Shown: positions 13,135-26,589 of the stretch, piece by piece | Numbering within the stretch: position 1 is the stretch's first letter | Layout: every line of letters starts with the position of its first letter | Origin: a virus | IMG/VR virus record: IMGVR_UViG_3300005293_000049 | Span: 1 to 28,415 of that record | DNA length: 28,415 nucleotides | Direction: 5' to 3' (one strand) | Program-made: the position numbers and the translations under genes | The notes under the pieces: model-generated | What the model was told of the DNA's origin: nothing | What the model saw: only the letters and a program-made list of their open reading frames with translations | Database searches by the model: none

Positions 13135-14361
13135 ATGCCAGCTTTGACAGTATTTCAGATGCGTCGTGGTACCGCTGCTCAGTGGACCACACAAAACCCG
13201 ACTCTTGGGTCGGCAGAACCGGGCTATGAGACGGACACAGGGGACTTCAAGCTTGGCGATGGAATCCTGTCTTGGTCGGCTCTCCCCTACGTAGGCGCTG
13301 ATAAGGCACTAGCAGGACATACGCACCTTGCTAGTCAGATCTCGGATTCGACGGCTACTGGTCGATCGGTCCTTACTGCATCCTCGGCAGCAAATGCACG
13401 AGCCGCTATTGGTGCAGGAACATCAGATCTCGTACTTGGTAGTACTGCAGGAACCGCTAAAGCTGGCAACTGGGTACCATCATTCTCCGAAGTCACCGGT
13501 ATTCTGGGTACCAACCAGCTTCCTCCGTTGGCTATCAACCAGCCTACGCCGGTTGCAAGTCAGGCAGCTATGCTTGCCTTGGTTGCTCAGCGTGGTGACG
13601 TTGCGATTCGGACGGATATTGGGAAGACCTTCATCCTCGCCACCGACAATCCGGGCACAATTGGCGACTGGCTCGAACTCATCGGTACCAGCGATGTAGT
13701 ATCTGTAGCTGGTAAGACTGGTGCGGTAACGCTTGCTAAAGCAGACGTAGGACTCTCCAACGTTGACAATACGTCGGATGCAGCAAAGCCGATTTCCACT
13801 GCCACGGCAACCGCTCTCGCCGGCAAGGAAGATACCATTGCGGTAGGAACTGTCTCCCAGTACTTGAAGGGTGACAAGACTTGGGCCACGCTAGATAAGA
13901 CTGCCGTTGGTCTCAGCAACGTCGACAACACGTCTGATGCCAACAAGCCGGTCTCTTCCGCAACCAACACGGCACTTGCGGCCAAGGCTCCGCTTGCTTC
14001 TCCGACTTTCACGGGTACGGTTACGCTTCCGGCAACCACCAATGGACTCACGAAGTCCAACGTTGGTCTATCTAGCGTTGACAACACCTCGGACGTCGGT
14101 AAGCCGGTCTCTACTGCTCAGCAGACTGCACTCAACCTCAAAGCCAACCTTGCTTCGCCTACCTTCACGGGTACTGTGGTCCTTCCATCGACCACTAACG
14201 GTCTGAGCAAGACAAACGTTGGTCTGACCAACGTGGACAACACGTCCGATGCGGCAAAGCCGATTTCCACCGCCACAGCGACTGCTCTGGCAGGAAAAGC
14301 AGCCTCATCGCACACCCACACCACGAACGACATCACCACCATTGATGGAGGTACTCCTTAA
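13135..14361 (+). CDS. Tail fibre with N-terminal attachment domain and about 52-residue repeats
   Basis: A 408-residue protein starting at ATG 13135 behind AAAGGA. Residues 1-55 are an attachment-type domain (QMRRGTAAQWTTQNPTLG...GYETDTGDFKLGDG...WSALPY), shared with the next gene. The middle has AGHTHLASQISD. The C-terminal half carries four copies of VGLxNVDNTSDxxKPxSxA at residues 205, 258, 310 and 362. The last two intervals include SPTFTGTV and ATTNGL; this repeat type is typical of phage fibre shafts. The end is THTTNDITTIDGGTP. Repeats at 13780 and 14250 are nearly identical in DNA, so recombination could change shaft length. The next start overlaps as TAATG. Confidence 0.88.
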   Translation: MPALTVFQMRRGTAAQWTTQNPTLGSAEPGYETDTGDFKLGDGILSWSALPYVGADKALAGHTHLASQISDSTATGRSVLTASSAANARAAIGAGTSDLVLGSTAGTAKAGNWVPSFSEVTGILGTNQLPPLAINQPTPVASQAAMLALVAQRGDVAIRTDIGKTFILATDNPGTIGDWLELIGTSDVVSVAGKTGAVTLAKADVGLSNVDNTSDAAKPISTATATALAGKEDTIAVGTVSQYLKGDKTWATLDKTAVGLSNVDNTSDANKPVSSATNTALAAKAPLASPTFTGTVTLPATTNGLTKSNVGLSSVDNTSDVGKPVSTAQQTALNLKANLASPTFTGTVVLPSTTNGLSKTNVGLTNVDNTSDAAKPISTATATALAGKAASSHTHTTNDITTIDGGTP

Positions 14362-16511
14362 TGACTAAAATTCAAGTTCGTCGCGGCTCCTCAGCACAGT
14401 GGGCAGCCAGCGCGAACCCCATCCTCTCAGCTGGAGAGGAGGGATATGACACTACGGTAAAAGACAGTAAGATCGGCGATGGTGTAACGACATGGGCGCA
14501 GCTTCCATTCAGGAAGTCGGGCAAATATGCATGGGTTGAAGATTACTTCCCAGCTAACCGTGTTCCGGGCACCACTGATGACCGTGCGGCTTTTGAAGCT
14601 GCACGAGCTACAGGTAAATTCGTTCGAGCTGGGGAAACGACCTTCCATATCAGCCGTAGTCCTGACTGGGGCGACAATGCTCGCTTCAAGGGTGCTGGTA
14701 AAGGTAAAACCATCATCAAGCTGCTGGACACCGCAGTGCAAACCGCAGATGTCTGGTCGAATGCTAGCCTCACGGGTACAGTTCAGGGATATTTCTCGGA
14801 CTTCACTCTTGATGGTAACTGCACGCGTCAGGGTGGTTTCGCTGATGGTGGCGGAGGCTCACAGGGGTCCTGCTTGGTTCTTAGGAATGTGAATCATTTC
14901 TATGTCGACCGAGTAGAAGCTATCAACCCCAACCAGCACTGCTTTGACGTTACTCGTGGCAGCCTGCAGTATGCCTATGGTGGCGATGGTGTGCTCGCAA
15001 GCCTCCGTTCTGAGAATGTATATTTCAATCAGGTTCAGGGTTCTAACTTTGGCGACGATGGATTTACCACTCACAGCTCGGACTTCGTACACGTATCGAA
15101 CTCGGTATTCTTCAACCCTCGTAACCGTGGCAACTGTAACGGCATCGAGTTTGATGGCGATAGCCGCTTCTGCACCTCGACGAATAACCGAACCTTCAAC
15201 TGCTATGCCGGCATTGAAATCAAGGGTCATGGTTCGGAAAGTGCTGCACAGGGTATCACTATCAACGGTCACATCGACACCGGTAGTGTTCGCTCGTACA
15301 ACTTCCGCCACATCGGTTTCCACAGTGGTGCAGAGCCCGTCTCTGTATCTGCTAGGGACATCACGGCTACGAACCTCGTATCCATCTGGCCGAACAACGA
15401 TGCGGGATTCCAAGATGACGCTACCCCAAGAGCGCTTGCGATCAGTGCATATCACAACGTCACGATTGCTGGATTCACAGCTATTGGTCGCGGTGATTAC
15501 GATGACAATACCATCGCCATCTCGGTGCAGTATCGTGCTCGAAACATCAGCATCACAGGCATCAACATTCGAAACTTCTTGGGCGCCTTTGCCGATATCT
15601 CCATTACAACCGGAGACGTCGTAACTATTGGCGGTAACATCGAATACTCGGCTGATCGAGCCTTGTATGTTGGATCGAATGTTGAAACGGTCAACCTTGT
15701 AGGGTTCAATGCAACAGCACCTCTCGTAGGTGCTCAGCATGGACTTGATCTCTACAGCGAAATCTCTGCGAATGCTGTTCAGGAATCCTATGGTGTTAGT
15801 CTACGTGGCTATCCCAATCAGGTTCGGGCAGGCGGCATCAACTACACTTCATGGGCTCTGTTCATGAGGCGTATTCGGGACATTCCGGCAGGGATTACAC
15901 GACTCATCGATCTGCCGCCGGAGTATACGTACTACGGCAGCTCTACGGTGATGAACACGATCACAGACCACCCGAGTATCGGTGGTGCGGCCATCATTGA
16001 ACATTCCGATGTCAGTGATGTCTTCAAGCAGACGGTTACCCGTAACACTACGGGTGCTACGCTTCAGGCTCAGGCTTGGCGCATCTGTTACACCAACCTC
16101 ACTAATGGTCCATGGAACCGAGTGGTTCTGGCAAGTGACGTAGCAGTTAGCGATACAGGCTTCCGAAACATCGGTGGCGCTGCCGCAATGACTGCTGGGT
16201 GGGTAAGTTATGCAGAAGACATCATCTTGGCTCGTGAGGGGAACATTGTTCACTTCTCCGCGAAGGTTGATAGCACGGCAGCTACGGCTGACGGCTTCAT
16301 GACTCTCCCGCTTGGGTTCCGTCCGGATTGCCCGGACTGGTTCCCGCTAGCAACGTACAACTCAGTAGGTACTGGACGATGGGGGCGTGTCTCACCTGCG
16401 GGTGTTGTTTCGTGCTCACGACCAGCGCCGCTTGGCTGGCACTATGTTGCCGGAACGTGGAAGACGCGAGATGCGTGGCCCACCGTACTCCCCGGAGTAG
16501 CACGACCGTAA
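14361..16511 (+). CDS. Tailspike with pectate-lyase-like beta-helix
   Basis: A 716-residue protein whose start overlaps the fibre stop (TAATG). Residues 1-50 repeat the attachment domain of the fibre (IQVRRGSSAQWAASANPILS...KIGDGVTTWAQLPF). From about residue 70, DRAAFEAARATGKFVRAG... and FKGAGKGKTIIKLLD are the entry cap of right-handed parallel beta-helix proteins of the pectate-lyase-3 type. The helix continues with many Asn-rich turns (YFNQVQGSNFGDDGFTTHSSDFVHVSNS) to about residue 450. The C-terminal part (RITDL, TWRIC...W) resembles the terminal domains of fibre proteins. It probably binds or cuts a surface polysaccharide. Which sugar is cut, or whether it is catalytic, cannot be told from sequence. 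Confidence 0.85.
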   Translation: MTKIQVRRGSSAQWAASANPILSAGEEGYDTTVKDSKIGDGVTTWAQLPFRKSGKYAWVEDYFPANRVPGTTDDRAAFEAARATGKFVRAGETTFHISRSPDWGDNARFKGAGKGKTIIKLLDTAVQTADVWSNASLTGTVQGYFSDFTLDGNCTRQGGFADGGGGSQGSCLVLRNVNHFYVDRVEAINPNQHCFDVTRGSLQYAYGGDGVLASLRSENVYFNQVQGSNFGDDGFTTHSSDFVHVSNSVFFNPRNRGNCNGIEFDGDSRFCTSTNNRTFNCYAGIEIKGHGSESAAQGITINGHIDTGSVRSYNFRHIGFHSGAEPVSVSARDITATNLVSIWPNNDAGFQDDATPRALAISAYHNVTIAGFTAIGRGDYDDNTIAISVQYRARNISITGINIRNFLGAFADISITTGDVVTIGGNIEYSADRALYVGSNVETVNLVGFNATAPLVGAQHGLDLYSEISANAVQESYGVSLRGYPNQVRAGGINYTSWALFMRRIRDIPAGITRLIDLPPEYTYYGSSTVMNTITDHPSIGGAAIIEHSDVSDVFKQTVTRNTTGATLQAQAWRICYTNLTNGPWNRVVLASDVAVSDTGFRNIGGAAAMTAGWVSYAEDIILAREGNIVHFSAKVDSTAATADGFMTLPLGFRPDCPDWFPLATYNSVGTGRWGRVSPAGVVSCSRPAPLGWHYVAGTWKTRDAWPTVLPGVARP

Positions 16512-16525
16512 CCATCAAAATAGGA

Positions 16526-16579
16526 GTTAAAGGAGCCGTTATGTCTGGATTTAAGATCGAGTCTAGCGGCTCCTTTAAC
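16526..16579 (+). promoter_or_regulatory. Long hairpin masking the ribosome site and start of the gp10-like gene
   Basis: GTTAAAGGAGCCG (16526-16538) is the exact reverse complement of 16567-16579. The stem extends by a G-U (16539/16566), T-A (16540/16565) and A-T (16541/16564), so even the A of the ATG at 16541 is paired. The Shine-Dalgarno AAAGGAG is buried; the loop is 22 bases. No T-run follows, so this is not an intrinsic terminator. The previous gene stops at 16511, 14 bases before the stem. A control element for translation of 16541 and, by coupling, the tape measure is the simplest reading. Confidence 0.75.
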
Positions 16580-16927
16580 AACCTTGAGCGTTATCTTTCG
16601 GCTATGTCTAAAGGTGACGTATTTTCTTCGCTGGAACAGTATGCCCGCGAAGGGGTCTCGGCACTTTCCAAAGCAACCCCTTTGGAAACTGGCGAAACTA
16701 GAAACTCTTGGAGCTATGTAGTTAAAAAGACCCGAGGGTCATACACGATAACGTGGACTAACGACCACAAAACTGCTGGTGGCGATCCCATTGCAATCAT
16801 GCTGCAGTTTGGCCATGGCACTGGTACGGGCGGTTATGTTCAGGGTAGAGATTACATCAACCCCGCAATGAAACCCGTATTCGATAAGATTGCAGACAAG
16901 GCTTGGAAGGCGGTGACCTCTGCATGA
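16541..16927 (+). CDS. HK97 gp10-like neck/tail-completion protein
   Basis: A 128-residue protein from ATG 16541. It matches the HK97 gp10 family of head-tail joining proteins: ALSKATPLETGETRNSWSY (about 42-60), TITWTNDHK, IAIMLQFGHGTGTGGYVQGR, DYINPAMKPVFDKIADKAW at the end. The conserved GHGTG-GYVxGRDYINP block is diagnostic. In related phages this gene stands between head-closure and tail-terminator genes. Here it lies alone, directly upstream of the tape measure and after the spike genes. Its stop overlaps the tape-measure start (ATGA), so both are probably translated together under the preceding hairpin. Confidence 0.85.
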   Translation: MSGFKIESSGSFNNLERYLSAMSKGDVFSSLEQYAREGVSALSKATPLETGETRNSWSYVVKKTRGSYTITWTNDHKTAGGDPIAIMLQFGHGTGTGGYVQGRDYINPAMKPVFDKIADKAWKAVTSA

Positions 16928-19900
16928 GTAGTAGCATTGACGAGAGAATCGTCTCAATCAAGTTCAACAACAGCCAGTTTGAGGCTGGTATTCGAACGAC
17001 AATGACCTCGTTGGATGGACTCAAGAAGAGTCTGAACTTCTCGGCGGCAATCACAGCACTCGGCAATCTCGATGCTGCTGGTAAAAAAGTCAACATGAAG
17101 CTCGATAACACGGGCTTTGATGCAAGTGTTAAGAACGTCGTGGACTCATCGAACAGGTTGAAGACCAGCCTCAAGTTCGATGGAGTAACCAAAGGACTCA
17201 ACGATCTCGATGCCGCGGGTAAGAAGGTCAACCTAAAGCTTGACGCGGCAGGCTTCCAAGCAGGCGCTAAAGCTGTTGTAGATGCCGCAACCACGATCAA
17301 GCAGAACTTGAACTTTGAGTCTGCTCAGCGTGGGATCGGTAACCTTAAGTCTTCTGTCCAGAACTTCTCATTCCAGAGTCTCATCACTGGGTCTCAGAAT
17401 GCCATGCGGAGTCTTGGAGAGCTTGACCTCGCAGGTAAAGCAGTAAACTTCCTACCCATATCTGAGGGTGCTGATCGAGCACACCAGAGCATTAGCGCTA
17501 TGTCTGTGGCGGGTATTGCAGCACTTGCGGGTCTCGCATTTAAGGCTGCTTCGGTAGGTGCCGACATGGCTAAGTCGCTCTTCATCGATCCGGCTAAGTC
17601 TGGTCTGGCTGAATACGAATTGAACCTTGGTTCAATTCAGACGATCATGGCTAACACCCAGAGTAAGGGTTCAACACTCACCGACGTCAACGGCGCCCTT
17701 GATGAGTTGAATGCATATTCCGATAAGACCATCTACAACTTTGCTGAAATGGCCAAGAACATTGGTACATTCACCTCGGCTGGCGTAGGTCTGAAGGATT
17801 CAACTACCGCCATCAAGGGTATTGCAAACCTTGCCGCACTGTCTGGCTCAAACTCTGAGCAGGCTTCTAGTGCCATGTACCAGCTCTCACAGGCCATGTC
17901 CACAGGTAGCGTAAAGCTTCAGGACTGGAACTCTGTTGTCAACGCTGGTATGGGTGGTGAAGTCTTCCAGAATGCACTTAAGGAGACTGCTAAGAATCAA
18001 GGCACGAACGTTGATGCGCTGATTGCAAAGCACGGTAGCTTCCGAGACTCGCTGACCTCCGGCTGGGTCACCGATAAGGTTATGCTGGAAACTCTTTCTA
18101 AGATGACTGGCGACCTTACCGATGAGCAGCTTCGGGCAATGGGTTACAACGATGAGCAGATCAAGGGCATTCAAGCAATGGCCGTGACTGCTAGTGATGC
18201 TGCTACGAAGATCAAAACCTTCTCACAGCTCACTGGAACTCTGACTGAAATCACTGGCTCAGGTTGGGCGCAGTCGTGGAAGTACATCCTCGGTGACTTT
18301 GAACAGGCTAAGGTCATGTGGACCAGCATCTACAAAGTCATCGGCGGAATGGTTCAGGGTACGGCAGATGCTCGAAACAAGATGCTTCGGGAATGGAATG
18401 AAGCTGGCGGTCGTCAAGAGATGATCTGGGCTGTCGGCAATGCGTTCCGCGCACTTGTCGGTGTCCTCAAACCTGTACAGGAAGCCTTTAGAGAGGTCTT
18501 CCCACCAACTACAGGGCAGCAATTGTTCGAGATCACTAAGGCTATTCGCATCTTCACGGAAGCACTCCTTCCAAATGAGCATGTCGTTGGCCTGATCAAG
18601 AACACGTTCAAGCTCTTCTTCACAGTCATCAAAATAGGAGTAGACATTATCAAGGGGGCACTCTCAGTAGTGTTCGCCTTCTTCAAGGCCTTTGCTACTG
18701 GTGGTGATTCTATCTCCGGAAGCATGAAGCCCATAACGGATGCTCTTGCAGCCATCACGAAGAGTCTTCAGGAATCTAAGATTGTTGAGAAGTTCTTTGC
18801 TGCATTGGCAACCGCGGCTACAACCTTGGGTAATGTTCTCCGAACGATGGTTGGCTTTGTCGTTAACGTCGGGCTTGCGCTCTACAACATCATTGCCGGC
18901 ATCGTTGGCGCTATCAGCTGGTTCGGTCTCATTGAGTTTGCTTTGGATGCTGCTAATGGAGCATTCCGAACTTTCGGTGAGATGATTCAGTTTGTACTTA
19001 CCTATATCGACAACCTTGGCGTCGCTCTTCGTGAGGGGGCTAAGGCTTTCGTTAAGGGCGGTATTAGCGCAGCTATCGATGCCTTCCAGAACAGCCTGAC
19101 TGCTATGGGTGATGTTGGTGAGATCGTGCTCACGCGCATCGAAGCTAGGCTTGCATCCATTCGTCGCTTTGCGGATCGTCTGGCTAGGGCTTGGGATCAG
19201 GTCATGGCAGTTCTTGGTCGTGTATGGGAAAAGATGCTTCCTCTTCGTGAGGCAGTAGCGGACCTGTTTGCAGACCTCAGTAATGAACTGAAGAACGTCT
19301 TCACCAACGTCAACTTCAATGACACGCTGGACATGGTTAACACTGGGCTTCTCGCAGGTCTTGTGCTGCTCTTCCGTAACACGTTCAAGAAGATGCTTGG
19401 TATGGGCGATGGGGTAAAGGAAGGTCTTCTGGCAAACCTTGATACGGCCTTCGAGTCGATCAATGGCGTGCTTGAAGGTCTTACTGGAACGCTTGAAGCT
19501 ATGCAGCAGAACTTGAAGGCTGACACGCTGATGAAGATTGCTATGGCTATCGGTATCCTTGCGATATCTGTGGTCGCACTGTCTTTGATCGACTCCGGCA
19601 AACTGACAAAGGCGCTTGTGGCTATCGGCGTGATGGTGGTTATTCTCACCAAAGCGATGGAAGCATTGGACAAGATATCTATCGGGTCTGGCTTCCTAAA
19701 GATTCCATTCATTGCTGCGGCTATGATTCTGTTGGCGATCGCACTTGCTATTCTCGTTATTCCAGTAACACAGCTATCACAGCTTAGTTGGAATGAGCTT
19801 ATCAAGGGTCTCGTAGGAACTATCGCATTGATGGTCGGCCTGTCTAAGGCTGCTGAGTCAATGTCGGCAAACCCTGCGGACCTTATTGCAACAGGCGTAG

Positions 19901-21951
19901 GCCTTATTGCGGTAGCGATTGCCATCAAGATCCTTGCTAGTGCTGTGAAGGATATCTCTGAGCTTAGCTTCGGAGCTATGATTCAGGGTCTTCTCGGTGT
20001 TGGAGCGCTGCTCACAGCACTCGCCATATTCAACAACATGACCAAGGTTAACAAGGGTTCCTTTGCTTCGGCAGCGGGCTTTATTCTCCTAGGTATCGCG
20101 CTGAAGATCATGGCTAGTGCTCTAGGCGACTTTGCCGCAATGGATACTGCTTCGCTTATTCAGGGCATGGGTGTTCTAGCTATTGTGCTTGCACTCATGT
20201 CTCGGTTCAGCAACACGATCAAGCCTGCGGATATCATGCAATCAGCAGCTGCGATGATCCTTCTAGCCTTCGCCATGAAAATCATGGCTAGTGCTATTGG
20301 TGATCTAGGCAGTATGCGATGGCAAGATCTTGCGCAAGGCATTGTCGTGATGGTTGTAGCACTGGATGCGATGAGTAAGGCGATGGCACGAGTACCTCCA
20401 AACATGCTCACGTCAGCGATAGGCTTCATGGCTGTTGCTGCTGCGATGAAGGTTCTAGCCTCAGCTCTACAGGACTTCGGCGGAATGTCGTGGGAAGAAA
20501 TTGCTAAGGGTCTTACGGTTCTGGCGGCTTCTCTCTTGCTCATTTCCGTAGCCCTGATTGCCATGGAGGGGACCTTGACTGGTGCTGCCGCAATCCTGAT
20601 CGTAGCGGTTGCGCTGGGCATTCTTGCACCCGTGCTTGAACGCTTTGGACAGATGTCTTGGGAAGAGATGCTTCACGGCTTTGCTGCCTTGGCCGGTATC
20701 TTCGTCATATTCGGTCTTGCCGGATTGGTGTTGGCGCCTATCGTTCCCATTCTGTTTGCTCTAGGTATCGCTATGGCAATGCTCGGTATCGGACTCTTCG
20801 GAGTTGGTATGGGTACAGTCCTATTTGCCGCTGGCATGGTGGCTATGGCTACCGCAGTCGTAGTTGCTGGGCCAATTCTAGTAGCCTTCGTTGCTAGCCT
20901 GCTAGCTTTGATTCCACTGGCATTGGCTGAGTTCGGTAAGGGCGTAGTCGCCTTTGCAGATGTTATTGGTGGGGCAATGCCGACGTTCTTGAACGCCTTC
21001 GTTGCACTGTTGACAACACTGCTTACGGCAGTCACTATCGTATTCCCGCAAATCATGTCAACGCTCTGGATGGTCATCGTAGGCCTTGTTGATTTGGTGG
21101 TTCGAGCTGTTCCGCTGTTCGTCGATGCTGGTATGAAAATCATCATCGGCATCTGGACAGGTATCGGAAACAACATGGGTAAACTCGTAGATGCGGCCGT
21201 CAAGGTTGTGACTGAGTTCATCGATGGTATCGCTCGAAATATCGGCAAGATCATCGACTCTGGTGTGAACCTCATCATCAAGTTCGTTGAAGGTCTTGCT
21301 CGATCCGTTCGTGAAAACTCGGATCGAATGAGTGACGCAGGGTACGACCTTGCTAAGGCGATCATCGACGGTATGGTCAACGGCATTGCCAAGGGTGTTG
21401 GGCGTGTTATCGAAGGTGCTAAGAATATGGCCAACGACGCACTCAACGCTGCTAAGAACCTCTTGGGGATTAAATCTCCTTCTCGAGAGTTCTTCGCAAT
21501 TGGTAAGTTCGTAGACATGGGCTTCGCCAACGGTGTCGATAAGTATGCACATCTCGGTGTGAACTCCATCGAAGGAATGGGTACGACTGCTATGGGAGTG
21601 CTCAAGAAGACGATGGCAAATATCGGTACTGCTGCGGTAGCAGTCATGGACGTATCTCCGACGATTCGACCAGTGCTGGATCTTTCAGCAATTAAGCGAG
21701 ACTCCGGTCTTGTAGCAGGAATGCTTGGAGTCCCAAGTTTGGCTGTAAGTGGCACGTACGATAAGGCGGCAACGCTAGCAGTGCAGGCACGAGCTAACAA
21801 GGACACCCAAGTTGCAGCACCTGAGGGAGCGGTTACTCCTTCAACAGGCGATACAATCACATTCATCCAGAACAACTCTTCGCCAAAGGCTTTGTCCAGA
21901 GGAGAGATCTATCGTCAAACCAAGAACCAGTTGTCCGTAGTTAAAAAATAA
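16924..21951 (+). CDS. Tape measure protein
   Basis: 1675 residues from ATG 16924 (ATGA overlap), the largest gene. The N-terminus (SIDERIVSIKFNNSQFEAGI) is the usual tape-measure opening. At about residues 30-135 a segment LNDLDAAGKKVNxKLDxxGFxA is repeated at least twice. After a long helical region with typical LGSIQTIMANTQSKG and GMGGEVFQNAL, residues about 870-1275 are very hydrophobic. They are made of seven units anchored on KILASA-like blocks followed by a MSWEExxxGL helix. The C-terminus has LLGIKSPSREFFAIGKFVDMGF, a hallmark. At 1.5 angstrom per residue this would suit a tail near 250 nm. No lytic domain was recognised. Confidence 0.95.
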   Translation: MSSSIDERIVSIKFNNSQFEAGIRTTMTSLDGLKKSLNFSAAITALGNLDAAGKKVNMKLDNTGFDASVKNVVDSSNRLKTSLKFDGVTKGLNDLDAAGKKVNLKLDAAGFQAGAKAVVDAATTIKQNLNFESAQRGIGNLKSSVQNFSFQSLITGSQNAMRSLGELDLAGKAVNFLPISEGADRAHQSISAMSVAGIAALAGLAFKAASVGADMAKSLFIDPAKSGLAEYELNLGSIQTIMANTQSKGSTLTDVNGALDELNAYSDKTIYNFAEMAKNIGTFTSAGVGLKDSTTAIKGIANLAALSGSNSEQASSAMYQLSQAMSTGSVKLQDWNSVVNAGMGGEVFQNALKETAKNQGTNVDALIAKHGSFRDSLTSGWVTDKVMLETLSKMTGDLTDEQLRAMGYNDEQIKGIQAMAVTASDAATKIKTFSQLTGTLTEITGSGWAQSWKYILGDFEQAKVMWTSIYKVIGGMVQGTADARNKMLREWNEAGGRQEMIWAVGNAFRALVGVLKPVQEAFREVFPPTTGQQLFEITKAIRIFTEALLPNEHVVGLIKNTFKLFFTVIKIGVDIIKGALSVVFAFFKAFATGGDSISGSMKPITDALAAITKSLQESKIVEKFFAALATAATTLGNVLRTMVGFVVNVGLALYNIIAGIVGAISWFGLIEFALDAANGAFRTFGEMIQFVLTYIDNLGVALREGAKAFVKGGISAAIDAFQNSLTAMGDVGEIVLTRIEARLASIRRFADRLARAWDQVMAVLGRVWEKMLPLREAVADLFADLSNELKNVFTNVNFNDTLDMVNTGLLAGLVLLFRNTFKKMLGMGDGVKEGLLANLDTAFESINGVLEGLTGTLEAMQQNLKADTLMKIAMAIGILAISVVALSLIDSGKLTKALVAIGVMVVILTKAMEALDKISIGSGFLKIPFIAAAMILLAIALAILVIPVTQLSQLSWNELIKGLVGTIALMVGLSKAAESMSANPADLIATGVGLIAVAIAIKILASAVKDISELSFGAMIQGLLGVGALLTALAIFNNMTKVNKGSFASAAGFILLGIALKIMASALGDFAAMDTASLIQGMGVLAIVLALMSRFSNTIKPADIMQSAAAMILLAFAMKIMASAIGDLGSMRWQDLAQGIVVMVVALDAMSKAMARVPPNMLTSAIGFMAVAAAMKVLASALQDFGGMSWEEIAKGLTVLAASLLLISVALIAMEGTLTGAAAILIVAVALGILAPVLERFGQMSWEEMLHGFAALAGIFVIFGLAGLVLAPIVPILFALGIAMAMLGIGLFGVGMGTVLFAAGMVAMATAVVVAGPILVAFVASLLALIPLALAEFGKGVVAFADVIGGAMPTFLNAFVALLTTLLTAVTIVFPQIMSTLWMVIVGLVDLVVRAVPLFVDAGMKIIIGIWTGIGNNMGKLVDAAVKVVTEFIDGIARNIGKIIDSGVNLIIKFVEGLARSVRENSDRMSDAGYDLAKAIIDGMVNGIAKGVGRVIEGAKNMANDALNAAKNLLGIKSPSREFFAIGKFVDMGFANGVDKYAHLGVNSIEGMGTTAMGVLKKTMANIGTAAVAVMDVSPTIRPVLDLSAIKRDSGLVAGMLGVPSLAVSGTYDKAATLAVQARANKDTQVAAPEGAVTPSTGDTITFIQNNSSPKALSRGEIYRQTKNQLSVVKK

Positions 21952-21966
21952 GAAGGAGCACTAAGT

Positions 21967-22800
21967 ATGCTGACTAAGGTAGAAATCAGTACCGATCAGG
22001 GTGCTACATTGGAGCTCCTCTTGGGAGATCCGTCTAACGGATATCTCGTCAAAGAGATTGAGGGTCTAGACCCGGTAAAAGCAACGATCGTTTCGTCAAG
22101 TCGTGCGACCATGGATGGGGAACAATACCAGTCCAGTCGACGCGAATCTCGGAATATCCTGCTCAAGCTGGGTCTAGACGCTGATCAAACTACGGAGACT
22201 GTCAGGGCTTTGCGTAAGAGGCTGTATAGCTATCTCATGCCGAAGTCCAACGTGCGTCTGCGCTTCCATGTGGAGGAGGGGGATGGTGACGATCTGATCG
22301 TTGACATTTATGCAAGGGTTGAATCGTTCGATTCTCCCTCCTTCACAAAGGAGCCAGAAGCGACTATTTCGCTCATTTGTCACCAGCCAGATTTCTATGT
22401 ACCCACCCCGGTGGTGCTTAGTGGAATGACGGTTTCGGACTCGACCGAGTTCATCATCGACTATGAGGGATCTGTAGAAACCGGTATTCTCATCAGCATG
22501 TTACTGGAACGCGACCTCTCTGAGTTCGTGGTACACCACCGACCTGCTGATGGAAGTAATCGAAGCTTGCAGTTCTCAGAGCCTCTTCTCGCTGGAGACA
22601 TACTGGATATCAGTACTGTCTCTGGCCAGAAGGGCGCCATCAGAACCCGTGGCGGACTTCCAGAGTCTGTCCTTTATGGCGTCTCGCCATATTCAAACTG
22701 GATCACGCTGTTTCCGGGTGCGAATGCCATTCGCGTATATTCGGAAGGGGCTCCGGTACCTTTCCTGATCGAGTACACGACTAAGATCGGAGCTATCTAA
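21967..22800 (+). CDS. Distal tail protein (Dit-like)
   Basis: A 277-residue protein starting at ATG 21967 behind AAGGAG, directly after the tape measure, the position of Dit in siphophages. The N-terminal barrel includes GYLVKEIEGLDPVKATIVSSS and YQSSRRESRNILLKLGL, then TVRALRKRLYSYLMPKSNVRL and a typical EATISLICHQPDFYVP. The C-terminal part is a galectin-like beta region ending in LFPGANAIRVYSEGAPVPFLIEYTTK. It would form the hexameric hub between tube and tip. The next start overlaps its stop as TAATG. Confidence 0.85.
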   Translation: MLTKVEISTDQGATLELLLGDPSNGYLVKEIEGLDPVKATIVSSSRATMDGEQYQSSRRESRNILLKLGLDADQTTETVRALRKRLYSYLMPKSNVRLRFHVEEGDGDDLIVDIYARVESFDSPSFTKEPEATISLICHQPDFYVPTPVVLSGMTVSDSTEFIIDYEGSVETGILISMLLERDLSEFVVHHRPADGSNRSLQFSEPLLAGDILDISTVSGQKGAIRTRGGLPESVLYGVSPYSNWITLFPGANAIRVYSEGAPVPFLIEYTTKIGAI

Positions 22801-24229: not shown

Positions 24230-25033
24230 ATGGCTGTCGGCACTTTTAGCGGTAACGGGAACTACAAGATAGATGTTGACGCAGCCTTTACTGGTCACAG
24301 TGGACTGTCATCGAATGTCTACTGGCGAATATACGTCATCAAGTCGAACACTACGGGTCACCGTGCTTGGGGTAACACGAACAGTAATGGTCGTGCAGAC
24401 TCCAATCTAGGCGGAGCAAATGACCTTTGGTATAACGGCAACATGGAGTACAACTTCCAGAATAACTCTTTGAACGGCACCTTCCTGATTGCTGAAGGTA
24501 CCTTCAACATTGGACATCGTGCTGATGGTACCCAAGAGTATTTTGTGACAGGGGCTCTAAATTTCATCAACCTCGGTTCGGCATCAGCTAGCACTGGTAT
24601 TCGTTCCCTTCCACGCATTCAAACCGCCTCAGTTCCTCCAGCCCCTTCAGGCAAAGGCTTCGGCGCCATATCGCAAACCAATATTCAGTACTTGTTTCAG
24701 AATAATGGTGATGGCGGTTCGCCCGTCCGTGAGTGGCAAGCTAGGTGGCAAAATGCAACTCGTAATGGCACGTTGAATGAGTACTGGTCAAACGGATCTA
24801 CTGATATTGGTGGATTGAACCCGGGTGAGCTATACAACTTCTGGTCTCGCGGACGTAATGATGTTGGCTGGGGACCTTGGTCTTCAGTGTCTTCAGCTAG
24901 AACAATCGCCGGAGCTAGAGTTAGACGTGAGGGTGAATGGCGACCTGCCGTCCCTTACGTAAAAGTCAACGGTGTCTGGCGACTAGCCCAGCCCTACATA
25001 AACGTCGATGGGGTATGGAGAAAGACAATATGA
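24230..25033 (+). CDS. Minor tail protein with FN3-like domain and C-terminal Trp repeats
   Basis: A 267-residue protein from ATG 24230, two bases after the previous stop and without a clear ribosome site, so translational coupling is likely. Residues 1-135 are beta-rich with many Asn and Gly (GTFSGNGNYKIDVDAAFTG, LNGTFLIAEGTFNIGH) and may be a fibre or DUF859-like domain. Residues about 140-225 look like fibronectin type III (VREWQARWQNATRNG, LNPGELYNFWSRGRNDVGWGPWS). The end carries three repeats of the type W-[RK]-x-A-x-PYVKVNGVW, a sticky C-terminal motif frequent in actinophage minor tail proteins. Surface or glycan binding is likely. Confidence 0.75.
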   Translation: MAVGTFSGNGNYKIDVDAAFTGHSGLSSNVYWRIYVIKSNTTGHRAWGNTNSNGRADSNLGGANDLWYNGNMEYNFQNNSLNGTFLIAEGTFNIGHRADGTQEYFVTGALNFINLGSASASTGIRSLPRIQTASVPPAPSGKGFGAISQTNIQYLFQNNGDGGSPVREWQARWQNATRNGTLNEYWSNGSTDIGGLNPGELYNFWSRGRNDVGWGPWSSVSSARTIAGARVRREGEWRPAVPYVKVNGVWRLAQPYINVDGVWRKTI

Positions 25034-26226: not shown

Positions 26227-26508
26227 ATGTTTAAAAAAGAACACCCCAACACCGGTATGCAACTGGTGATTGACGCAGCAACCGCCGAACTCCTCAAGGA
26301 AAGTCCCGGTTCTGACAGGTACAACAAGATTGTTGAACAGATCGAAAAGCTTAACAAAGTCGCCGCTAGTAATAGAAGCGACAAAGTGAGCAAAGACGGT
26401 CTGATTGCAGTTGCGGGAAACCTGCTCGGAATCGGAATCATCGTAGGACACGAACGATTCGCCGTCATCACCTCGAAAGCCATCGGCTTCGTTGGGAAGT
26501 TCCGCTAG
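26227..26508 (+). CDS. Conserved small phage protein with C-terminal hydrophobic helix
   Basis: A 93-residue protein starting at ATG 26227 behind GAAAGGAG and headed by promoter box P0. The N-terminal two-thirds is soluble and helical (LVIDAATAELLKESPGSDRY NKIVEQIEKLNKV). The segment DKVSKDGLIAVAGNLLGIGIIVG (about 60-80) is a hydrophobic helix, then ERFAVITSKAIGFVGK. The D-x-V-S-x-D-x-L-I/A-x-x-x-G-N-L-x-G-I pattern recurs in small proteins of many actinophages. Their function is not known to me. It is the first unit of the single-gene array and ends before a strong terminator. Confidence 0.75.
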   Translation: MFKKEHPNTGMQLVIDAATAELLKESPGSDRYNKIVEQIEKLNKVAASNRSDKVSKDGLIAVAGNLLGIGIIVGHERFAVITSKAIGFVGKFR

Positions 26509-26539
26509 CATGGACCACACTACCAAGTAATTCAAAATG

Positions 26540-26589
26540 GGAGTCGTGTGTAAGACTTAAAACCTCTTACACACGGCTTCTATTTTTTG
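26540..26589 (+). terminator. Intrinsic terminator after 26227 gene
   Basis: CGTGTGTAAG (26545-26554) pairs exactly with 26566-26575 and is extended by weaker pairs on both sides. The loop is 26555-26565 and TATTTTTT follows at 26581-26588. It ends the transcript that may include the whole late operon. Confidence 0.85.

Follow-up and report, generated by a model that had tools for sequence, protein, structure and literature searches.

A hairpin over the Shine–Dalgarno sequence of a gp10-like/tape-measure gene unit in a virus record and in related phages

The gp10-like start and the hairpin over it

The DNA analysed here, referred to as the window, is a linear IMG/VR virus record of 28,415 bases, from a bacterial virus of the soil type whose host is probably an actinobacterium. 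A gene for an HK97-gp10-like protein lies immediately before the tape measure gene; two genes with an Mtd_N domain are found upstream of it, and a Dit-like gene (Sipho_tail domain) follows downstream. The features on which the analysis turns are as follows.

14361–16511, plus strand: upstream gene (spike/tail protein) with an Mtd_N domain; its stop lies 14 nt before the stem
16520–16526, plus strand: second Shine–Dalgarno (SD)-like sequence, ATAGGAG, ending on the first paired base; opening cost 5.2 kcal/mol
16526–16541, plus strand: 5' arm of the hairpin, 13 perfect pairs (16526–16538) and three more; holds the SD and the A of the ATG
16529–16535, plus strand: main SD, AAAGGAG; opening cost 17.3 versus 3.6 kcal/mol with and without the 3' arm
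16541–16927, plus strand: HK97-gp10-like gene, 128 aa (PF04883, E 0.0016, 19.8 bits)
16564–16579, plus strand: 3' arm (anti-SD) of the hairpin, inside the gp10-like gene from the last base of codon 8 to codon 13
16924–21951, plus strand: tape measure gene; homologues are annotated as tape measure protein
21950–22022, plus strand: second, weaker hairpin at the Dit-like gene (ATG at 21967); −27.2 kcal/mol, z −3.19

The PF04883 score of the gp10-like gene is just under the curated cut-off of 21.4 bits, and the homologues annotated as tape measure proteins come from Arthrobacter, Streptomyces, Gordonia, Microbacterium and Curtobacterium phages. The gp10-like frame is open back to a TTG at 16328; this other start was rejected and 16541 was kept, because relatives start at the aligned position with an SD of their own. 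The stop codon of the upstream gene (16511) precedes the stem by 14 nt and the gp10-like ATG by 29 nt.

An initial annotation of the locus had described a perfect 13-base inverted repeat, extended by three pairs, that hides AAAGGAG and pairs the first base of the ATG, as well as an ATGA overlap between the gp10-like and tape measure genes, and both descriptions are borne out. The arms GTTAAAGGAGCCG (16526–16538) and CGGCTCCTTTAAC (16567–16579) form a perfect 13-bp inverted repeat, to which the pairs U16539–G16566, U16540–A16565 and A16541–U16564 are added, giving a stem of 16 pairs around a loop of 22 nt (hairpin 16526–16579). The main SD lies inside the 5' arm and the A of the ATG (16541–16543) takes part in the innermost stem pair, while the gp10-like stop TGA (16925–16927) overlaps the tape measure ATG (16924–16926). 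Folding with RNAfold, the check that the annotation had proposed, gives −30.9 kcal/mol for the hairpin alone (z −8.11) and −39.2 kcal/mol with 101 nt of context (z −5.71), and in each case none of 200 shuffles was as low. The cost of opening the SD is 17.3 kcal/mol once the RNA has folded, compared with 3.6 kcal/mol in an RNA that ends at 16563 and so lacks the 3' arm; on a 4-base measure (16.1 kcal/mol) it is the most buried SD among the 30 candidate gene starts listed in the window. In the alignment of relatives the 3' arm spans the conserved Gly-Ser-Phe codons, here GGC TCC TTT. Structurally the element is a member of the broad kind of SD-sequestering hairpins, in which the SD and/or the start codon is held in a stable cis helix, and it would be expected to repress initiation. 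It also has the layout of a kinetic gate: the 3' arm, which complements the SD, follows the ATG and is transcribed later than the start site.

The window has a single perfect 13-bp inverted repeat whose loop falls in the range 3–60 nt, and at least one such repeat arose anywhere in 9 of 300 Markov simulations of the window, so that the length of the arms is by itself only a mild surprise; the notable point is the exact placement of the repeat on an SD. The 13-mer arm sequence is present in the window only as these two arms, even when 2 mismatches are allowed, and membership of a repeat family was rejected on this ground. No Rfam covariance model matched positions 16400–16750 up to E 5, which led us to discard an Rfam family identity as well. 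There is no terminator-like site at the stem, that is, no GC stem with a short loop followed by a T-run, and no T-run follows the 3' arm; an intrinsic terminator was accordingly rejected. So was a sigma70-type promoter at the stem, none being found in 16350–16750 in a scan for sigma70-like sites.

The second SD-like sequence, ATAGGAG, went unmentioned in the initial annotation. It lies almost wholly outside the hairpin, belongs to a recurrent TCAAAATAGGAG context and might serve as a standby site for the 30S subunit. Around it (window positions 16515–16526, and in relatives) the motif TCAAAATR is seen in 27 of the 258 gp10-like leaders compared below, with 0.46 expected after shuffling, and AAAATAGGAG with at most one mismatch occurs nine times in the window against 1.23 expected; these may be a start-associated sequence.

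Occurrence of the hairpin and selection on the start region

The 420 sequences scanned comprise the window and loci L001–L420 without L091. All relatives were found through protein patterns, mostly away from the hairpin codons, with N-terminal peptides used in some searches. A gp10-like gene is present in 418 of the 420, with a usable start in 417 (all but L217), and 258 non-redundant sequences were left once those more than 85% identical around the start had been dropped. The 196 from the first searches are the set in which the idea arose; the 62 fetched later serve as the check. Gly-Ser-Phe is conserved in the alignment of the gp10-like protein, and a simple pattern divides the sequences into 121 G-S members and 137 others. 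The pattern requires F, W, Y or L after Ser, so that a small number of G-S-T/H members that share the hairpin (L286, L417 and L418) are counted among the others. G-S members with no recognized SD (3 of 85 in the first set and 1 of 36 in the later one) were dropped before the SD counts.

When the first codons were randomly recoded, with leader and protein kept, excess structure in the start region (p ≤ 0.01) was found in 25 of 121 G-S members versus 3 of 137 others. By set, the figures are 18/85 in the first and 7/36 in the later for G-S members, and 1/111 and 2/26, respectively, for the others; the tape measure starts of the same loci, taken as a control, reach this level in 3 of 254. An SD opening cost of at least 8 kcal/mol was seen in 50 of 117 SD-bearing G-S members and in 7 of 112 others, the null mean being that high in 6 of the 117. 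The choice of serine codon is also linked to the leader: with an SD of the form GGRGYC, which complements the Gly codon, Ser is encoded by TCY in 33 of 36 sequences, and otherwise in 21 of 46 (first set; Fisher p 8e-6), and the link recurs in the later set (19/21 versus 7/14, p 0.011).

Permutation of leaders against coding regions in a fixed register showed that, in the first set, true partners fit better than exchanged ones (n=82, z 5.8, 0/2000), with the largest effect at third positions of codons, k+6 among them. This flank covariation failed overall in the later set (G-S members, n=35, z 0.88, 417 of 2000 shuffles as high) and in the TCY class (n=26, z 0.43), only k+6 being weakly favourable (p 0.03 and 0.054). 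We read this as the consequence of a nearly constant core, so that there is little for the test to act on, and the failure stands. Covariation, another check proposed at the outset, is missing for the flanks in the later set as a whole and present in the window clade, which comprises 16 members selected because their proteins group with that of the window, unpaired ones included. Here 77.0% of cells are paired versus 70.2% after shuffling (0/500) and the covariation score is 0.294 versus 0.204 (0/500), and when the partner is slid along, at most 50.8% are paired. Column pairs 15–46 (G-C, A-U, U-A) and 16–45 (C-G, U-A, U-G, G-C) have changed on both sides. At columns 13 and 14, each paired in 16 of 16 members, C is replaced by U only, opposite an invariant G, which fits RNA wobble.

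Several further comparisons were less informative. Among five distinct Gordonia sequences covariation was no higher than in shuffles, and a strand test comparing G-U and A-C counts across the register gave no decisive difference. U is in excess at the two bases after GGRG: among bases other than C it makes up 35 of 62 in the TCY class and 35 of 108 in non-G-S sequences (Fisher p 0.0019, the relatives not being independent). Too few supported pairs were available on the tree for independent-pair tests to decide either way. The synonymous nulls of both sets and the window-clade covariation nevertheless agree that the structure is under selection in relatives: the hairpin is kept by selection above codon choice, beyond coincidence. 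A coding reason for Gly-Ser-Phe exists, and part of the pairing is therefore protein-driven.

Relatives that keep the genes and lack the repeat had been named beforehand as evidence against a role, and they are found in part: the SD opening cost is below 8 kcal/mol in 67 of the 117 G-S relatives, whereas others keep the hairpin, with compensating changes in the window clade. On a tree of the 85 G-S members, few of whose branches are supported, the hairpin label changes 16 times versus 25.3 when shuffled. Among 26 named phages examined for SD burial, all six Gordonia phages (Perkunas, Tanis, Petito, OlgasClover, Untouchable and Mossy) have a hairpin that includes the start codon, the longest being that of Mossy. 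Twelve Arthrobacter phages, from a group whose proteins are about 56–65% identical to those of the window, have no such hairpin (SD opening 2.5–6.6 kcal/mol), which shows that gp10-like and tape measure genes work without it. Together with three other Streptomyces phages, two Microbacterium phages and one phage each of Curtobacterium and Bifidobacterium, they span 1.2–6.6 kcal/mol. In Streptomyces phage SheRa the SD is buried by a different build (10.1 kcal/mol). That many related viruses keep such a hairpin suggests control of when, or how often, the tail genes are translated.

The Streptomyces-phage-like loci L240, L241, L063, L244 and L322 have no Gly-Ser-Phe. Immediately behind their start codon they carry a strong helix of the TTTCGTTCG/CGAACGGAA type, and in some cases the SD is paired outside this helix. 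In four of them (L240, L241, L063 and L322) the SD pairs with later codons around an inner helix of this type. In a longer window L241 folded differently, and this pairing is for that reason a lead and not a result.

A proposed gate and its alternatives

That a phage makes few tape measure proteins, while the same late transcript yields other tail subunits by the hundred, is generally put down to an unspecified strength of the ribosome-binding site. We think it likely that in the window the hairpin acts, by its structure alone, as a cis gate that sequesters the SD of the gp10-like/tape-measure unit and is probably opened by co-transcriptional loading and/or by upstream ribosomes. Our working hypothesis is that in the finished mRNA the SD would pair with the anti-SD arm written in the conserved N-terminal Gly-Ser-Phe codons, so that the hairpin would shut the SD; free initiation would then be denied to the gp10-like gene and, by way of the ATGA overlap, to the tape measure gene as well. 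A start so closed would hardly be a fine-tuned throttle worked by equilibrium breathing, and because the phage needs its tape measure, the hairpin presumably has to be opened by some means. Two routes are proposed because opening at equilibrium would be far too costly. A 30S subunit, perhaps parked on ATAGGAG, could load on the nascent RNA ahead of the synthesis of the 3' arm, and/or ribosomes coming off the upstream gene could provide the opening; such early loading, as at Q-beta A2 (PMC6071253), or upstream ribosomes would be the cheapest ways in. Once started, a ribosome would melt the 3' arm and could admit followers, with few, bursty rounds of translation per transcript as the expected outcome. 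Under the window hairpin translation may be confined to nascent RNA, and low tape measure dosage may be what the arrangement is for.

The suggestion that a ribosome ending at 16511 opens the hairpin is weakened for the window by the gap between the upstream stop and the stem: at 14 nt, judged from the usual footprint, the stem lies roughly out of reach of the front of a ribosome that terminates there. In most relatives with a buried SD the upstream stop is 12–18 nt before the start and touches the arm. Unburied relatives share this spacing, so that nothing in it points to coupling as the purpose.

The simplest alternative is that a strong SD, AAAGGAG, happens to face conserved Gly-Ser-Phe codons (GGN TCN TTY) that resemble an anti-SD, the hairpin having no role. 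The conservation of Gly-Ser-Phe in the protein, the existence of unpaired relatives and the failed flank covariation of the later-fetched set all speak for such a coincidence. We nevertheless regard it as unlikely, since the excess persists in synonymous nulls that keep the protein, is not seen at the tape measure starts, and is accompanied by an enrichment of YC after GGRG where Ser is TCY; in the window clade, moreover, the pairing reaches past the SD and Gly-Ser-Phe, with double changes. An element acting at the level of DNA or of processing, or a repeat that owes its perfection to something other than selection on RNA, seems very improbable. The inverted repeat with its 22-nt spacer is visible in the DNA and could be an operator palindrome, an RNase III site or a terminator, or it could have been perfected by template switching, which can create matched arms. 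Against a DNA or processing element of this kind stand the missing T-run after the 3' arm, the acceptance of U opposite G where DNA symmetry would break, the tie to codon choice and the absence of the element at tape measure starts.

Two further alternatives accept an RNA hairpin and add a second component to it. The operator of the RNA-phage coat protein is a hairpin over or near the SD, and the initial annotation had likewise raised the binding of a phage protein. A phage or host protein that binds the hairpin and represses, after the manner of T4 gp43 or the RNA-phage coat protein, would fit the position of the stem, a hairpin over or near the SD being the usual form of such sites (PMC3014915). 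However, both the sequence and the length of the loop (16–22 nt) vary, in a way that differs from loop-recognized operators, with a loop identity of 0.60 compared with 0.72 for the arms; no conserved loop signature was found among the relatives, and the stem by itself seems strong enough to keep the site shut with no ligand bound. The proposal is weakened to the point of being improbable. There is also little likelihood, in our estimation, of a temporal gate in which long read-through transcripts fold and are silent while a late promoter in or beside the stem yields a short, translatable mRNA. T4 gene e works in this way, and soc, 49 and I-TevI have similar hairpins (PMC3014915); at the window stem the promoter scan described above, limited to sigma70-like sites, found no candidate, although promoters specific to the phage would escape it.

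Among known systems, T4 gene e, soc, 49 and I-TevI and Aeh1 mobE have their SD and/or AUG enclosed in a cis hairpin, which reduces binding of the 30S subunit (PMC3014915). The window element resembles the gene e and mobE hairpins as a cis hairpin holding an SD in a tailed phage. It differs from them in its target, a tail-length operon, and in having its anti-SD arm in the codons of a conserved peptide motif; moreover, gene e is known to escape through late promoters at the hairpin (PMC3014915), and no sigma70-like promoter is seen at the window stem. The gate that we favour would work like that of the Q-beta A2 and MS2 maturation genes, low-copy structural proteins that are translated only until the SD complement has been synthesized or the leader has folded (PMC6071253). 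Those are RNA genomes, whereas the window carries a DNA phage operon for which folding energies suggest nascent-only translation. The hairpin at the MS2 lysis gene is opened by ribosomes of the coat gene (PMC6071253). The likeness lies in a hairpin over a downstream start that would depend on the ribosomes of the upstream gene; unlike the MS2 case, the window has a stop 29 nt before the start and 14 nt from the stem, which makes direct opening doubtful.

SAS/ESAS elements of Cluster K mycobacteriophages are conserved sequences around actinobacteriophage SDs, about half of them with inverted repeats (PMC3203893). The SAS is a 13-bp sequence, GGGATAGGAGCCC, found at non-structural genes; the inverted repeats lie upstream, and the authors report little support for RNA pairing (PMC3203893). 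With 3 mismatches allowed, the SAS has 5 matches in the window versus 5.84 expected, none of them at the gp10-like start, and identity with SAS/ESAS was rejected as showing no excess over chance. A search of the open-licence PMC literature found no paper on an SD hairpin at a tape measure or gp10-like gene, and within that literature the location on the tape measure unit, the breadth of recurrence and the placement of an arm in the codons of a conserved peptide motif are new. The gp10-like/tape-measure pair thus bears a concrete, conserved and breakable RNA element that is present in cultured Gordonia phages, which makes the dosage question directly testable. The same codons encode conserved residues and RNA structure, which matters whenever start-site structure or motifs are read from sequence alone.

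The Dit-like gene and other structures in the window

At the Dit-like gene the SD pairs with codons 16–19 (arms at about 21950–21959 and 22014–22022), and opening it costs 11.5 kcal/mol, or 7.8 kcal/mol when more downstream codons are included. Before the relatives were counted, eight loci whose assumed start is not a start codon were dropped, together with L439, whose match lies at the edge of its locus. No SD was recognized at 7 of the 57 non-redundant starts. Of the 50 SD-bearing sequences that remain, 19 have an SD cost above the synonymous null (p ≤ 0.05) and one falls in the opposite tail. In seven sequences picked after the folds had been seen (the window, L425, L426, L429, L430, L444 and L496), a helix of 14 pairs is kept in 88.3% of cells, with changes on both sides and a covariation of 0.245 versus 0.173 (11/500). 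In a fixed register, applied to 21 of the 50 SD-bearing sequences, no covariation was detected (z −0.59). The hairpin, with a 3' arm encoded by Leu-x-Leu-(Pro/Leu)-Leu codons, is strong in the subset and not in the wider family. L426 (Arthrobacter phage MediumFry) and L444 have the Dit-like hairpin, even though none of the 12 Arthrobacter phages examined has the gp10-like one.

It is interesting to speculate, and we hold this to be a tentative possibility that will more probably prove wrong than right, that anti-SD gates are spread over the tail operons of actinobacteriophages. N-terminal peptide motifs, Gly-Ser-Phe in the gp10-like protein and Leu-x-Leu-Pro-Leu in the Dit-like protein, would then double as RNA arms that close their own SD soon after transcription, and each mRNA would be translated in a brief nascent window. 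In different lineages the gate would be built anew from other codons; Streptomyces-type phages that lack the motif would pair the SD with E-D-S/F-L codons. If gates were so distributed, the stoichiometry of the tape measure and the tail tip would be set by transcripts and not by ribosomes.

Three other structures were noted in the window. A candidate start at 24937 has strong local structure, with a minimum free energy of −36.1 over 87 nt and an opening cost of 8.2 kcal/mol for a weak SD; it is an unsure start because it overlaps the preceding ORF. Between an ORF ending at 264 and one starting at 767 lies a 27-nt inverted repeat (412–516) whose copies are 85% complementary and 51 nt apart (−44.2 kcal/mol, z −6.55). 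After the ORF ending at 26508, a 22-bp near-perfect hairpin (26534–26586; z −6.5 in context), the 5' arm of which contains AAAATGGGAG, is followed by a T-run and reads as a strong terminator-like element.
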